Positions 69 through 35,702 of a stretch of DNA of 35,702 nucleotides are shown in pieces. Where the stretch lies: contig CACXOM010000010.1 in NCBI GenBank assembly GCA_902769255.1, forward strand, positions 1 to 35,702. The letters run 5' to 3'. This DNA is from Oscillospiraceae bacterium. GTDB taxonomy: Bacteria; Bacillota; Clostridia; Oscillospirales; Acutalibacteraceae. Under the pieces are notes generated by a model, which saw only the letters and a program-made list of their open reading frames with translations, was not told where the DNA came from and ran no database searches. Numbering within the stretch: the stretch's first letter is position 1; the number at the start of each line of letters is the position of its first letter. The position numbers were made by a program, and so were the translations under genes.

Positions 69-97
69 TTGTAGGGGTCGGATTCCTATACGACCCG
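69..97 (+). repeat. TGTAGGGGTCGG hairpin repeat
   Basis: A 29-base unit beginning TTGTAGGGGTCGG and ending CGACCCG, with stem GGGTCG/CGACCC. It matches the two copies inside the RAYT gene (16707-16735 and the reverse complement of 16882-16910) at 26 of 29 positions by eye. Confidence 0.85.
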
Positions 98-2681: not shown

Positions 2682-2802
2682 AAAAGCCTTCTCCTTGAGG
2701 AGAAGGTGGGTTGCACAGCAACTCGGATGAGGTGTAAAGTTTGTGCAAATAAAAACGGCGGGAGCTTAAGCCCCCGCCCTACAAAGTATTTATATGTTTT
2801 TA
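2682..2802 (-). repeat. Right inverted repeat flanking the LRR gene
   Basis: Reverse-complement partner of 239-360. The GC hairpin (GGCGGGGGC-TTAA-GCTCCCGCC on the minus strand, 2757-2783) and the near-palindrome CCTTCTCC..GGAGAAGG are both kept. The middle hairpin reads GTTGC-TGT-GCAAC instead of CAAGCG-TTC-CGCTTG, so structure is kept where sequence is not. Confidence 0.85.
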
Positions 2803-13937: not shown

Positions 13938-16451
13938 TTAGTTTTCTTCGGGAATTTCAATAGGTTTTACATCGTCTTGCAAAACTTCTTGTGCCTGCTC
14001 GTTTTCAGCCTGTTCCTCTTCTTGCTCTTCCTCTTTTTCGGTGAGCGAGAGAGTTATAATTCTTTCATCGTCTTTAACTCTCATAACCCTAACGCCTTTT
14101 GAAGGACGGGCAAATTTTGAAATCGAGTTAACCGGCGTTCTAATAACAATGCCTGCCGAAGTAATAAGCATAATATCTTCATCGCTGTTTTCATCGACCA
14201 TAGCGATTTGAGCGACATCGCCGTATTTTGCGGTACGATAGTTAATAATACCTTTACCGCCACGAGATTGAATTCTATAATCATCAACCGAAGAAAATCT
14301 GCCGTAACCTGTTTCGGTAATGGTTAAAATGTTGGCGTTATCTCTTACAACCGCCATACCGATAACCTCATCACCCGCCTTTAGCGTTATTGCTTTAACG
14401 CCACGAGCGGTTCTGCCGAGCGGTCGAGCATCGTTTTCATTAAATCTAATCGCCATACCTTTTTTGGTTGCTACGATAATTTCGCTGTCGCCGTCAGTTA
14501 AGTCAACAAATCTTAACTCGTCGCCCTCATCAAGCGTTACCGCATTTACACCGCCTTTGCGGTTGGTTTTGTAAACTGCAAACTGCGAACGCTTAACAAC
14601 GCCGTTTTTAGTACCCATTACAATGTATTTTTCTTCATCAAATTCAGATAAATGTACCATTGCGGTAACTTTTTCGCCCGCTTCGAGCGGTAAAAGGTTA
14701 ATAATGTTAAGACCTTTTGAAGTTCTTGTTCCCTCAGGCACAACATAGGCTTTTTGGTGGTAAACTCTGCCAAGGTTTGTGAAATACAAAATAATATCGT
14801 GGGTCGAGCAAATAAACATATGCTCCGCATAGTCTTCATCACGAGTGGTCATACCTTTAAGACCTTTACCGCCTCGGTTTTGAGCGTGGTAAGTGTCAAC
14901 CGGCAAACGCTTAATATAACCCATTTTTGTAAGTGTAAGCACGCAATCTTCTTCAGGAATTAAATCTTCGTCGTCAACATCGCCCTCAACCATAGAAATT
15001 TCGGTTTTGCGGTCGTCGTTAAATCTGTCGCGAATTTTTAATACCTCTTCTTTAACAATTTCAAGAATTCTTTGCTCGTTTGCAAGAATATCTTCAAAAT
15101 CGGCAATTTTTTCTTTAAGTGCAGCCAATTCAGACTCGATTTTCTCAATTTCCAAACCTGTTAATTGAGCGAGTCGCATATCAACAATATGTTTTGCCTG
15201 AATTTCATCAATCGGGAAATTCTCCATCAACGCAGTTTTAGCTTCATCAACAGTTTTTGAAGCACGAATTAATTTAATAACCTTGTCAATATCGTCAAGC
15301 GCAATTATAAGACCCTCTAAAATGTGCGCTCTGTCCATTGCTTTTTTAAGGTCAAATTTGGTACGGCGTGTAATAATTTCCTCTTGATATTTTACATATT
15401 CGTGCATAATTTCTTTTAAATTAAGCACTTTCGGAACGCCGTCAACAAGCGCCAACATAATAACGCCGAATGTTGTTTGCAACTGTGTATATGTATAAAG
15501 TTTGTTAAGCGCAACTTGCGGATTAACGTCTTTTTTAAGCTCAACAACAATTTTCATACCGTCACGGTTTGAGTAGTCGACAATGTCGTCAATGCCCTCA
15601 ATTTTTTTGTTGTCTGCCAAATCAACGATATTTTTAACAAGTTCTTTTTTATTAACCTGATAAGGAATTTCAGTAATAACAATTTGGAATTTATTATTGC
15701 GAATTTCCTCAATTTCGGCTCTGCCTCGAACAACAATTTTGCCTCTGCCGGTAGCATAAGCGGAGCGAATACCGCTTCTGCCCATAATAACACCGCCTGT
15801 CGGAAAATCAGGTCCGGGCAAAATTTCGTTCATTTCGTCAAGAGTGATTTCGGGGTTATCGATATAAGATACGATACAGTCGATTACCTCGCCCAAATTG
15901 TGCGGCGGAATATTGGTTGCCATACCAACGGCAATACCTTTTGAGCCGTTTACCAACAAATAAGGAATTCTTGAAGGAAGAGTTGTAGGCTCTTTGAGTC
16001 GGTCGTCGTAGTTCGGCATAAAATCAACGGTATTTTTTTCAATGTCGGCAAGCATTTCAACCGCCATTTTCGACATTCTCGCCTCAGTATAACGGTAAGC
16101 AGCGGCAGGGTGGCCGTCAACCGAACCGAAGTTTCCGTGACCGTCAATCATTTCATAACGCATTGAAAAGTCTTGCGCCATTCTAACCAAAGCGTCATAA
16201 ACCGAAGCGTCACCGTGAGGGTGATAAGAACCTAATACCGCACCGACAATATCGGCACATTTACGGTAAGGTTTATCAGGCGTAAGGCCCCTTTCAAACA
16301 TTGTGTAGAGAATTCTTCTGTGAACAGGTTTTAAACCGTCTCGAACATCGGGCAATGCACGGGAAACAATAACGCTCATTGAATAGTCAAGGAACGATTT
16401 TTCCATAGTATCGCATATTTCGACCGGTATAATTTTCTCTTCAAAATCCAT
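13938..16451 (-). CDS. gyrA: DNA gyrase subunit A
   Basis: A 837-residue gyrase A from the ATG at 16451. A TTG three codons upstream (16460) is the alternative start; GGAGA sits too close to the TTG and rather far from the ATG, so neither is decisive. The breakage-reunion domain has DGLKPVHRRIL, the quinolone region GSYHPHGDASVYDALVRMAQ and catalytic Tyr in AYRYTEAR. The C-terminal half is the beta-pinwheel, with the GyrA-box-like QNRGGKG and a later SRGGKG. The tail is acidic. The residue matching E. coli Ser83 is alanine. It is separated from gyrB by a YcxB-like gene and a RAYT. Confidence 0.96.
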   Translation of the reverse strand: MDFEEKIIPVEICDTMEKSFLDYSMSVIVSRALPDVRDGLKPVHRRILYTMFERGLTPDKPYRKCADIVGAVLGSYHPHGDASVYDALVRMAQDFSMRYEMIDGHGNFGSVDGHPAAAYRYTEARMSKMAVEMLADIEKNTVDFMPNYDDRLKEPTTLPSRIPYLLVNGSKGIAVGMATNIPPHNLGEVIDCIVSYIDNPEITLDEMNEILPGPDFPTGGVIMGRSGIRSAYATGRGKIVVRGRAEIEEIRNNKFQIVITEIPYQVNKKELVKNIVDLADNKKIEGIDDIVDYSNRDGMKIVVELKKDVNPQVALNKLYTYTQLQTTFGVIMLALVDGVPKVLNLKEIMHEYVKYQEEIITRRTKFDLKKAMDRAHILEGLIIALDDIDKVIKLIRASKTVDEAKTALMENFPIDEIQAKHIVDMRLAQLTGLEIEKIESELAALKEKIADFEDILANEQRILEIVKEEVLKIRDRFNDDRKTEISMVEGDVDDEDLIPEEDCVLTLTKMGYIKRLPVDTYHAQNRGGKGLKGMTTRDEDYAEHMFICSTHDIILYFTNLGRVYHQKAYVVPEGTRTSKGLNIINLLPLEAGEKVTAMVHLSEFDEEKYIVMGTKNGVVKRSQFAVYKTNRKGGVNAVTLDEGDELRFVDLTDGDSEIIVATKKGMAIRFNENDARPLGRTARGVKAITLKAGDEVIGMAVVRDNANILTITETGYGRFSSVDDYRIQSRGGKGIINYRTAKYGDVAQIAMVDENSDEDIMLITSAGIVIRTPVNSISKFARPSKGVRVMRVKDDERIITLSLTEKEEEQEEEQAENEQAQEVLQDDVKPIEIPEEN

Positions 16452-16524
16452 TTTGCTCAATTATCTCCAATCTGAATTAATGTTTATTTAAAATCCGCTC
16501 TAAAAGAGTGTTATAAAATATTAT

Positions 16525-17031
16525 CTAACAAAACAAACTATCGCTTTCCCAAACAGCAGGGTTATTATGAATATATTCACTAATTTCTATTAATGATTTT
16601 TCGTTTCTTATTACGTGTTCGTAAAAAGACCTTTGCCAAAGCTTCTTATTTGTTTTTCTGTTTGTATATCTTTTTAAAGATGAAACAACTTTAGAAAGAA
16701 TTGCGTTTGTAGGGGTCGGCTTCCCAGACGACCCGTTTGCTGACTCATTGTTTATAAATACAATTAAATGAATGTGATTAGGCATTATGCAATAGGTTTC
16801 TATATTGACAAATTGATTTGTTTCGTCAATAAATTTTATCGCATTTTCTACAGTTTTTCCGATTTCGATTAGTTCTACTTTCGGGTCGTCTGGGAAGCCG
16901 ACCCCTACAATCTTTGATAAGGTTTTTTGCTTTTCTTTAGTACAAATTGTTAAATAATAGTAACCGGTTTCGGAATAATCAAAATCTATAAGCCTAATTC
17001 TCTTTCTTTTAGGTAAATCTTTTTTATTCAT
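16525..17031 (-). CDS. REP-associated tyrosine transposase (RAYT, IS200-like)
   Basis: A 168-residue Y1/HUH nuclease. HIH at residues 86-88 in YCIMPNHIHLIV is the metal-binding HUH motif. The C-terminal LWQRSFYEHVIRNE..EYIHNNP block is the RAYT hallmark, with Tyr137 or Tyr153 as candidate nucleophile. Its ATG overlaps the YcxB stop by eight bases, so translation is probably coupled. The gene contains two 29-base perfect inverted copies (16707-16735, 16882-16910) of the hairpin repeat found between genes at 69-97, encoding residues 99-109 and 41-50. RAYTs are usually single-copy and linked to palindromic repeats; that fits, though activity is unproven. Confidence 0.88.
   Translation of the reverse strand: MNKKDLPKRKRIRLIDFDYSETGYYYLTICTKEKQKTLSKIVGVGFPDDPKVELIEIGKTVENAIKFIDETNQFVNIETYCIMPNHIHLIVFINNESANGSSGKPTPTNAILSKVVSSLKRYTNRKTNKKLWQRSFYEHVIRNEKSLIEISEYIHNNPAVWESDSLFC
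16707..16735 (+). repeat. Hairpin repeat inside the RAYT gene, copy A
   Basis: TTGTAGGGGTCGG..CGACCCG, stem GGGTCG/CGACCC. It is a perfect 29-base reverse complement of 16882-16910 and encodes residues 99-109 (NGSSGKPTPTN) of the RAYT. Confidence 0.9.
16882..16910 (-). repeat. Hairpin repeat inside the RAYT gene, copy B
   Basis: Inverted partner of 16707-16735 with identical sequence on the minus strand. It encodes residues 41-50 (IVGVGFPDDP), in a different frame from copy A. Confidence 0.9.
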
Positions 17032-17539
17032 TTATATCGCAGAAATAGTCTAAAACTTTTTTCAGCGGGGGTTTGTTGTTGTCGTTTAAAATGCGTTTTG
17101 GTATCGCCATTAATCTGCCATCAACAAGCACAATTATAATTTCATTTTCGCTTGTAAGCACTTGTCTTACATCTTCTTTTAAAATGTCCCAATTTGCGTC
17201 ATACGCTTCAACCACAACATTAATTTTGTCATCAAAAAGCGTAAGCACGGTATTTTCACCGGTTGTTGATGCACGAACTGTGTTTTTTTCGTTATTTTTA
17301 TAGCCGAAATAAGCGAAAATATTAACAATTATCAGTGCAAGTGTCGGCAAATATGCGTTTGGGTCTTTAAAAATTTCCGTTAGCGATTTATTTGTCAGCG
17401 GAATAAACGATAAAATTATTACAAGAAGTGAAACCATCGCAATAAAAATTATTCGTTTTTTGTAATTTTTTAACACCCCTGCGGTGTAAAGTGCTTCTTT
17501 AACCTCGTCCGGCGATAGAATATAAGAAAGTCTTTCCAT
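17024..17539 (-). CDS. YcxB-like membrane protein
   Basis: A 171-residue protein. Residues 1-25 are polar, two membrane segments lie at about 29-48 and 64-79, and a soluble C-terminal domain (about 90-171) resembles the YcxB-like family (beta-strand rich, with VLVDGRLMAIPKRIL near the end). Function is unknown in the family. It begins 12 bases after gyrB ends and its stop overlaps the RAYT start. Placement between gyrB and gyrA suggests co-transcription, not a gyrase role. Confidence 0.65.
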   Translation of the reverse strand: MERLSYILSPDEVKEALYTAGVLKNYKKRIIFIAMVSLLVIILSFIPLTNKSLTEIFKDPNAYLPTLALIIVNIFAYFGYKNNEKNTVRASTTGENTVLTLFDDKINVVVEAYDANWDILKEDVRQVLTSENEIIIVLVDGRLMAIPKRILNDNNKPPLKKVLDYFCDINE

Positions 17540-17551
17540 AAATACCTCTTT

Positions 17552-19519
17552 TTATATATCGAGATTTTCGACAAATTTTGCGTTTTCTTCGATAAAGTTC
17601 TTTCTTGGCTCAACCTCGTCGCCCATAAGCACGTTGAAAACTTGGTCGGCACGCTCGGCGTCTGCCATTGTTACTTTAAGCATAGTTCTAAACGATGGGT
17701 CCATTGTAGTTTCCCAAAGTTGCTCAGCGTCCATTTCACCAAGACCTTTGTAACGCTGAATAGAAGCGTTTCCGCCGAGTTCGGCATTATATTTATCACG
17801 CTCTGCCTCGTTAAAAGCATATCTTTTTTGTTTGCCTTTTTTAACCTCAAAAAGTGGCGGTTGAGCGATATAAATGTGTCCGTTTTCGATAAGTTGCGGC
17901 ATATAGCGGAAGAAGAATGTAAGCAAAAGTGTTGCGATATGCGCACCGTCAACGTCGGCATCGGACATAATAATAACTTTGTGATAACGAAGTTTTTCAA
18001 TATCAAAATTGTCGCCTATTCCTGTTCCCAAAGCTATTATGATAGGGGTTAGTTTATCGTTGCCGTAAACCTTATCAATTCTTGCTTTTTCAACATTAAG
18101 CATTTTACCCCAAAGAGCCAAAATTGCTTGATATTTACTGTCACGTCCTTTAATTGCAGAACCGCCCGCCGAGTCACCCTCGACTATGTAAAGCTCGTTT
18201 TTGGTCGGGTCACGTGAAATGCAGTCAGCCAATTTATCAGGCATACGCATTTTGCCTATACCTTTTGATTTTTCACGCTCTAACTCTCTTGCTTTTTGCG
18301 CTTTTTCTCTTGCGGCGGTTGCCGACATAACTTTGCTGACAACCAATTTTGCAACTGCTGGGTTATCTTCAAAATAGTCGGTCAATTTTTCGTTCATTGC
18401 CTGCGAAACGAGTGTTCCTATATAGGTGTTGCCGAGTTTCGCTTTAGTTTGGCCCTCAAACTGCGCATCGGTAAGTTTTACCGAAATTACCGCAATTAAG
18501 CCCTCTTGAACGTCTTCGCCCTTAAAATTAGAGTCGTTATCTTTTAAATATTTAAATTTTCTTGCATAGTCGTTTACAACCTTGGTAAGGGCTTTTTTAA
18601 ACGAGTTTTCGTGAGTACCGCCGTCAACGGTATGAATATTGTTTGCAAACGAGATAATGTTTGTGTCGTAACCGCTGTTATAAAGAAGCGCTACTTCAAC
18701 CTGTGCATCGCCTTTTACTGCGGAAATGTAAATATCGTCTTCGGTAATTCTTGTTGCAGCTTTCTTTTTAGAAAGCAAAAAGTCGCAATAAGATTTAATA
18801 CCTCCCTCAAAATGCAAAACATCTGCTCTTGGCTCGCCCTTGTCGTCAACTTCTGCGTCAAAACGTTTATCTGAAAGGTTAATTCTAATACCTGCGTTTA
18901 AAAACGCTTGTTCACGAAGACGGGTAAGCAAAGTTTCATAGTCATATCTTGTAGTTTCGGTGAAAGTTTTTGCGCTGGCTTTAAAAGTTACGGTTGTACC
19001 TGAACCCTCGCAGTCGCCGATACATTTTAAGTCATAAACCGGTTTTGAGTCTTCAAAACGCTGACGATAAAGTTTGCCGTCTTTTCTTACCTCAACTTCG
19101 AGCCAGTCGGAAAGAGCGTTTACAACTGATGAACCTACGCCGTGAAGACCGCCTGAAACTTTATAGCCCGAACCGCCGAATTTACCGCCTGCGTGAAGCT
19201 GTGTAAATACAACGGTAACCGCCGGCATACCCATTTTTTTCTGAATATCAACAGGAATACCACGGCCGTTATCAGAAACTTTAATAACGTCATCGTCTAA
19301 AATTTCGACATTAATATCGGTACAGTAGCCTGCTAACGCTTCATCGATAGAGTTATCGACAATTTCGTAAACCAAATGGTGCAGACCTCGCTCGCCTGTT
19401 GAGCCGATATACATACCCGGTCTTTTTCTTACCGCTTCGAGTCCTTCAAGGACCTGAATCGCAGAGGCGTCATATTCTTCCTCAACCTGCGTGTTCATCA
19501 AAATTTCTTCGTTTTCCAT
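17552..19519 (-). CDS. gyrB: DNA gyrase subunit B
   Basis: A 655-residue type IIA topoisomerase ATPase subunit. I use the ATG at 19519, preceded by AAAGGTGAAG; an upstream extension to 19558 lies in leader sequence. The GHKL ATPase domain shows [14 protein letters not shown], the NSIDEALAG Mg/ATP motif, DNGRGIPVD and [14 protein letters not shown]. The TOPRIM domain shows EGDSAGGSA and DADVDGAHI. The segment [14 protein letters not shown] replaces the more common PLRGKILNVEKA. It makes A2B2 gyrase with GyrA. Confidence 0.96.
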
Positions 19520-19561
19520 TTTATCTTCACCTTTCCAACACAGTGCCTGTGCACGCAAACT

Positions 19562-35608: not shown

Positions 35609-35702
35609 TGTAGGGCGGGGGCTTGCTCCCGCCGGTCAAGTGCCTTGACACGCAAGACTTCGGCATAAAGTTTGGTTTTGCTTAAAGTTTTGTGTCGCCT
35701 CA
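35609..35702 (+). repeat. Interspersed repeat, copy 3, at the right window edge
   Basis: Starts TGTAGG with hairpin GGCGGGGGC-TT-GCTCCCGCC. It continues with GTCAAG-TGC-CTTGAC and the GCAAGACTTCGGCAT tail (35626-35666 aligns with 1-41), then TTTTGTGTCGCCTCA, which also occurs at 210-224. The unit continues beyond the window. Confidence 0.85.

Follow-up and report, generated by a model that had tools for sequence, protein, structure and literature searches.

An Inverted REP Pair Carried in Two Loops of a Group 4 RAYT Gene and Its Covariation With the Putative Recognition Helix

The window, i.e., the whole 35,702-nt stretch of DNA that was analyzed, contains a RAYT (REP-associated tyrosine transposase) gene, P0001, with two REP units inside its reading frame. 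The gene, its parts and the dispersed units of the window are as follows.

16525..17031, minus strand: RAYT gene P0001, 168 aa, a Y1/HUH transposase; its motifs NHIH, WQ and YIxNNP are those of group 4 / subclass 2.4
16882..16910, minus strand: REP unit of loop 1 (residues 41-50); on the gene strand, GTAG comes first, then a hairpin with a mid-stem G.A mismatch
16707..16735, minus strand: REP unit of loop 2 (residues 99-109), inverted, with the gene-strand end CTAC(AA); perfect partner of the loop 1 unit
16768..16779, minus strand: NHIH (HUH) motif, residues 85-88, between both REP units; N85, H86 and H88 are (nearly) invariant
16651..16701, minus strand: helix 111-127, putatively the one that recognizes the REP; covariation with the unit at residues 117, 121 and 124; R121 aligns with E. 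coli K82
16573..16575, minus strand: Y153, presumed to be the catalytic tyrosine from its position within YI..NP; invariant column, role taken from the family
69..97, plus strand: dispersed REP unit, commoner variant, with 3 differences from the intragenic units
2753..2783, minus strand: dispersed unit related to the REP of a second RAYT (contig C6), with GTAGGG on the minus strand at 2773-2782
35609..35640, plus strand: dispersed unit related in sequence to the same C6 unit

P0001 had gyrB (together with an unassigned 171-aa gene) on one side and gyrA on the other, and the minus strand encoded all of them (window 13941-19558); the start of P0001 and the end of the upstream frame overlapped. 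The same-genus genome G002 lacked about 530 bases (near 16494-17026) between the two neighbours, which were both present, denoting an empty site. The spacing of the matches in the same-genus genome G001 likewise fitted the absence of the RAYT, and the two sides of the locus were on different contigs in G003. A RAYT match was absent in three same-genus genomes, G003 among them. Elsewhere in the window, REP units and inverted arms of 35-44 nt at 1-500 and 2675-2810 bracketed a 673-aa gene (614-2635), for which PARCEL-repeat and weak leucine-rich adhesin matches were obtained.

The features of a RAYT (TnpAREP) were present in P0001, namely the Y1 HUH transposase fold, NHxH and the catalytic Tyr; the NCBIfam match was below the 80-bit cut-off. 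The motifs NHIH, WQ and YIHNNP fitted the published table of subclass 2.4, i.e., RAYT group 4 (NH[IFV]H, WQ, YIxNNP; PMC6006769), and the assignment was made by these motifs. The RAYT groups were defined by Bertels 2017, as cited in PMC6006769. A REP inserted in frame in the gene, which is a trait of subclass 2.4, was also present. The perfect 29-base inverted pair described in the original prediction was confirmed at 16882-16910 and 16707-16735, and the units had the characters of GTAG REPs, namely GTAG with an imperfect GC-rich hairpin, repetition and a mostly extragenic location. The structure model of P0001 agreed with the suggested placement in surface loops: loop 1 was modeled as the tip of a beta hairpin and loop 2 as a low-confidence stretch between E86-93 and H111-127. 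Consistent with insertions at these sites, both loops were empty and shorter in relative L100 (11 and 12 residues vs. 17 and 23 in P0001). The view that the loop peptides are by-products of the DNA was supported, because in relatives the two loops held different units and different peptides. Covariation of the loops in protein alignments and contact predictions would be misleading, as these peptides are translated DNA repeats.

The distribution of the unit was explored in the 1.79-Mb assembly, in which 22 matches to the 26-base P0001 pattern (up to 3 mismatches) and 0 to the reversed pattern were found. Two of the 22 were in the RAYT gene, 19 of the other 20 were outside any ORF of at least 80 aa, and the one remaining match overlapped nothing but a 99-aa frame at the end of a contig. 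The gene carried the rarer variant, with 4 exact dispersed copies over 26 bases vs. 9 of the variant at 69-97. The gene had been called a host or a source of the repeats; the first part stood, given that it carries members of a dispersed family, whereas a source role is putative. The two findings named beforehand as speaking against the original prediction were not made, as further copies of the unit were present in the genome and the loop peptides differed among relatives. Short palindromes read in frame inside proteins are likewise known as Rickettsia palindromic elements, which are CGTC-tagged and lie in many genes (PMC3733652), whereas the present units begin with GTAG and only the two in the RAYT, among 22 own-genome matches, lay in a clearly identified gene. 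Intragenic REPs in other genes have also been reported (PMC3733652).

The expectation of a single RAYT per genome did not hold. A second RAYT was present on contig C6, with a perfect inverted pair of 26 nt from another REP family, and the C6 unit recurred at 16 or more other places with 86-96% identity (best 40 of 109 candidates scored). In other words, the two RAYTs of this genome carried perfect 29- and 26-nt pairs from two different dispersed families. The dispersed units were frequently near units of other types. Mobilization of the HUH segment between both units was searched for with the whole gene in its own genome, and only REP-sized matches were found besides the gene (best 40 of 85 candidates). 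A phage or plasmid as the main home was rejected, with 3 of 51 candidate stretches in viral contigs and 6 distant plasmid records. With a looser pattern (up to 2 mismatches) in 37 genomes of the same family, the window REP family had 23 matches in its own genome, 22 in G003 and 1-4 in four others, and 31 genomes had none. For G003, with 22 matches and no RAYT match, either the REPs persist without the gene or the gene is missing from the assembly.

The inverted REP pair was found in the same two loops flanking HUH in 116 of 160 related RAYTs and was reversed in none. Set 1 contained 90 genes, i.e., the window gene, 80 loci (by title mostly Clostridia, some from other phyla) and 9 loci of a further search, from which fragments, an antisense match and L037 (ambiguous frame) were left out. 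A score of at least 14 between loop 1 and the reverse complement of loop 2 denoted a pair, and 67 of the 90 genes had one. GTAG in loop 1 with CTAC in loop 2 was seen in 64 of the 67, the other three showing one only, and 0 were reversed. A motif-free k-mer scan of set 1 gave exact internal inverted 14-mers in 57 of 90 genes, all at residues 39-54 and 95-113. The independent set 2 was drawn from the 70 of 391 genomes of the window's class with a RAYT match. These yielded 80 near-full-length places (30 loci and 50 stretches, without the window genome's genes, G049 and shorter matches) and 75 near-full genes, of which 70 were kept as having less than 90% core identity to any set 1 gene. The pair was present in 49 of these 70 genes, 48 of the 49 in the GTAG/CTAC orientation and none reversed.

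The two arms within a set 1 gene were identical at a median of 96% over a median of 27 nt, and 24 of 67 were perfect. Loop 1 was read in one frame in 62 set 1 pairs and in another in 3 (2 not scored), and loop 2 in three frames (53, 12 and 1; 1 not scored), the tree implying 5 or more frame changes. For genes sharing 30-50% core identity, the mean loop score was 7.8-8.8 across genes vs. 24.4 within genes, for 67 genes chosen for matching loops; this same choice also inflates the loop-to-loop partial correlation, which was 0.79. Among all 90 set 1 genes, the own loop 2 beat every other gene's in 34 and was in the top five in 61. L052 had different units from its sisters L068 and L080, with both loops changed (SH-aLRT 91, below the 95 mark). 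Beyond the unit, arm matching dropped to about chance, on one side starting three bases ahead of GTAG and on the other past the end of the alignment. Hence, there was no sign of long conversion tracts, which selection on neighbouring codons could mask. The pair is dispensable, since 44 of the 160 genes lack it. In L114 and L118, loop 2 had both GTAG and CTAC (double-foot type) and loop 1 was short, a form that may predate the spread of the pair over two loops.

Such loops could also be explained by neutral tolerance, by which REPs land anywhere, most of those inserted into genes are lost, these two loops happen to tolerate them, and the unit is uninformative on specificity. The hairpin tip and the low-confidence stretch of the model, the 44 genes without a pair, and the repeated units inside single loops of L052, L061, L070, L180, L201 and L234 are consistent with this explanation, and the insertion has been described as peripheral, with possibly little impact (PMC6006769). 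However, tolerance does not predict the covariation of unit and helix in two sets and in tree-independent pairs (see below), and the fixed orientation (64/67 and 48/49, none reversed) and the same unit in both loops of a gene argue against it. We regard it as unlikely.

The bare finding is already known, because in-frame REPs have been published for tnpAREP genes of subclass 2.4, in general lying between HUH and Tyr (PMC6006769). The present genes resemble that subclass, as described in the text of PMC6006769, in motifs, in-frame REP units, the variable insert between HUH and Tyr, and GTAG hairpins; they differ in that a second, inverted, matching unit lies before HUH too and that unit and recognition helix vary together. 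The same text mentions for subclass 2.4 an extra segment of 8 aa, located where alpha B ends, that is not called REP and may be loop 1. A REPtron consists of a RAYT gene with inverted REPs on both sides, and the coevolution of RAYTs and REPs was described from two tree topologies (PMC2817692). One RAYT, two inverted REPs, a genome-dispersed REP family and RAYT-REP coevolution are shared with it (PMC2817692), whereas the inverted REPs were here inside the ORF instead of flanking it. No exact GTAGGGNNNG outside the RAYT ORF was found in the window nearer than about 7 kb. Flanks of 1 kb on either side of the ORF were inspected for 81 relatives with a pair; 16 had a unit of the same type there, 5 of them on both sides.

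The carried unit was also compared with the genome around it. For 5 of 5 RAYT genes tested genome-wide, the unit recurred in its own genome. The units of L073, L086 and L081 were searched in one set of 20 whole genomes with up to 3 mismatches allowed and the two in-gene copies counted, and two of the three were absent from the 19 other genomes: 22 own-genome matches for L073 and 44 for L086 (Gemmiger), with 0 elsewhere for both. The L081 unit was not private, with 18 matches in its own genome, 112, 30, 210, 9 and 1 in five others, and 0 in 14. When only the available flanks were used, an own-type unit was found for 18 of 65 genes, at 0.048 per kb vs. 0.0064 per kb in other loci.

An inverted pair within a gene may also act in the transcript, where the arms would pair as a long stem and limit RAYT expression. 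The predicted fold of 261 nt reached -84.9 kcal/mol (z -11.0, with 0 of 200 shuffles as good), but such a strong fold is expected because any inverted pair yields it. Arm transitions in 67 genes kept a G-U pair in 24 cases vs. 24 in which it was broken, and 40 differences were transversions. Selection on the mRNA stem was therefore rejected by this wobble test, mRNA self-regulation as first suggested was not upheld, and this reading is considered highly improbable. The self-recognition suggested beside it gained support in a different sense, i.e., that the carried unit covaries with the recognition helix.

The covariation was evaluated by a column scan, in which the partial correlation between residue sharing and the similarity of the loop 1 units was obtained with the rest of the core controlled. 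All core columns were taken without structural input; the K82 contact described below was known beforehand. The top columns of set 1 (65 genes) were 121 (0.51), 124 (0.33) and 117 (0.29), with a 95% point of permuted maxima of 0.154. For set 2 (49 genes), only 117 (0.50) and 121 (0.41, barely) exceeded the 95% point of 0.401. The column profiles of the two sets correlated at 0.73. In the joint scan (113 genes), the signal was at 117, 118, 121-124, 127, 130 and 134 (0.22-0.52), with a second signal at 63, 64 and 71 (0.19-0.31) and at most 0.17 at the other numbered columns. In P0001, the covarying residues 64 and 71 belong to helix 56-71. Hence, at the level of sequence, the carried unit was shown to covary with the putative recognition helix across two sets. 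Within helix 111-127, residues 117, 121 and 124 would share one face. K82 of E. coli TnpAREP belongs to alpha 3, the DNA-binding helix, and makes a specific contact with C27, the bulged base of the REP (PMC8266576). The HMMER alignment to 4er8 placed K120 on K81 and column 121 on K82, with W94 and Q95 fitting the published numbering; the E. coli enzyme differs in being a group 2 protein, with 21% identity to P0001 over the structural alignment.

The helix starts directly after loop 2, and both could thus be exchanged together by recombination, with unit and helix traveling as one piece without recognition. We consider such linkage very unlikely. Columns 115 and 116, which are the nearest, scored 0.11 and 0.03 vs. 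0.41, 0.52 and 0.34 for 117, 121 and 124, and all loop-adjacent columns (37, 55, 91, 115 and 116) were at 0.11 or below in the joint scan. Columns 85-91 before loop 2 reached 0.03 at most, whereas 64 and 71 in another helix had 0.25 and 0.31. Moreover, the unit of loop 1 was used in the scan, and the highest-scoring column corresponds to K82, a known contact, in the alignment.

The residues were then related to the shape of the predicted stem. With R or K at 121, the stem was irregular (mismatched) in 39 of 43 genes vs. 3 of 70 with other residues, and with R121 and N124 in 36 of 37 vs. 6 of 76. Tree-independent pairs for R121+N124 against the irregular stem numbered 18, of which 15.4 were in the same and 0 in the opposite direction (median p 6e-5); for R/K121 alone, 15.4 were same and 0.3 opposite. 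C117 and a GGCTTGC-like apex gave 8 such pairs (6.9 same, 0 opposite), and the best of 56 control columns gave p 0.09. All branches of a poorly resolved tree built without the tested columns were used; with well-supported branches only, there were 5 usable pairs (4.3 same, 0 opposite), which was not significant. M121 was present in all 7 genes with a TTCACG apex and in no others of the 113. In 26 further genes (L245 and L246 being alike), an irregular stem was predicted in 3 of 7 with R121 vs. 1 of 19 without it, so that R121 by itself predicted the stem poorly, and in 3 of 4 with R121+N124 (the fourth, L243, having an interrupted unit) vs. 1 of 22 others; the N124 refinement was fixed after the table of these genes was known, and the latter comparison is not a blind test. 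L168, L178, L184 and L234 had R121+S124 with perfect stems and three-base loops, possibly a second reading mode of R121.

Judging from these sequence data, the carried REP would be the cognate single-stranded target of the enzyme, kept current by REP-for-REP replacement. The helix would read the middle of the hairpin, and R121, like E. coli K82, may read the mid-stem mismatch of the P0001 unit. As recognition drifts, the favoured REP variant would spread through the genome and also replace the in-gene copies, by cleavage and rejoining by the enzyme or by gene conversion. The loops would tolerate such replacement, so that each strand of the gene would hold a current copy of the target. The pair may serve as a portable seed REP after horizontal transfer or in DNA-level autoregulation. 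We have fair confidence in this explanation as a whole, i.e., that P0001 is a group 4 (subclass 2.4) RAYT with an "internalised" inverted REP pair in two tolerant loops flanking HUH, and that the pair is the cognate target, read by the helix and replaced REP for REP. Points against it are the 44 genes without a pair, the lack of an M121 RAYT in the matches of G073 (see below), the L081 unit shared with other genomes, the weak showing of R121 alone in the 26 further genes, the REPs of G003, the rarer variant in P0001 and the few usable pairs on well-supported branches. The convergent pair in two loops, the joint turnover and the covariation with the recognition helix are added here, as they were not found in the literature searched; no paper on covariation of intragenic REPs with the recognition helix was found in the open-access literature.

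With less assurance, and leaning only slightly to this side, we read the REP pair as both the true target and a heritable record of specificity, a self-labelled lock-and-key unit with a recognition code between residues and hairpin. REP families and RAYT specificities would therefore arise together in one gene. As parts of the same reading, R121+N124 would correspond to a mid-stem G.A or A.G mismatch, G117+M121+N122 to a TTCA[CT]G apex, C117+S121 to a GGCTTGC-like apex, and R117+T121 mostly to GATG...CATC. The repeat and the recognition helix change together across relatives, and thus enzyme and target may be read side by side in one gene. Work in vitro on the choice of REPs by RAYTs has dealt with three enzyme-REP pairs (PMC8266576). 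Provided that every group 4 gene holds its own target, genome sequences could yield hundreds of such enzyme-target pairs with no need of experiments. If true, specificity would be predictable from few residues, and orphan REP families could be assigned to a partner.

A prediction was set before the search, namely that G060, G063 and G073, which have many TTCACG units and known RAYTs carrying others, have a further RAYT with M121. The prediction held in 2 of the 3 genomes, with one of the two genes broken. The M121 RAYT of G063 (L240) had G117, M121 and N122 with the near unit TTCATG. In G060, the M121 RAYT L250 was broken, with the exact unit in loop 1 and a separate second piece reading G117, M121 and N122. 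No M121 RAYT was found among the 9 matches of G073 (second piece of L271 included), nor among the genes read from 14 genomes without the TTCACG unit, some short fragments being left out. G073 (locus L092) had 210 matches of the TTCACG-type REP, which would represent either a REP family without a partner or a RAYT gene that the assembly lacks. G060 (Chakrabartyella piscis) contained eleven RAYT-like loci of different types (L212, L232 and L242-L250) on one 3.4-Mb chromosome; L245 and L246 shared their loops, and at least L250 was broken.
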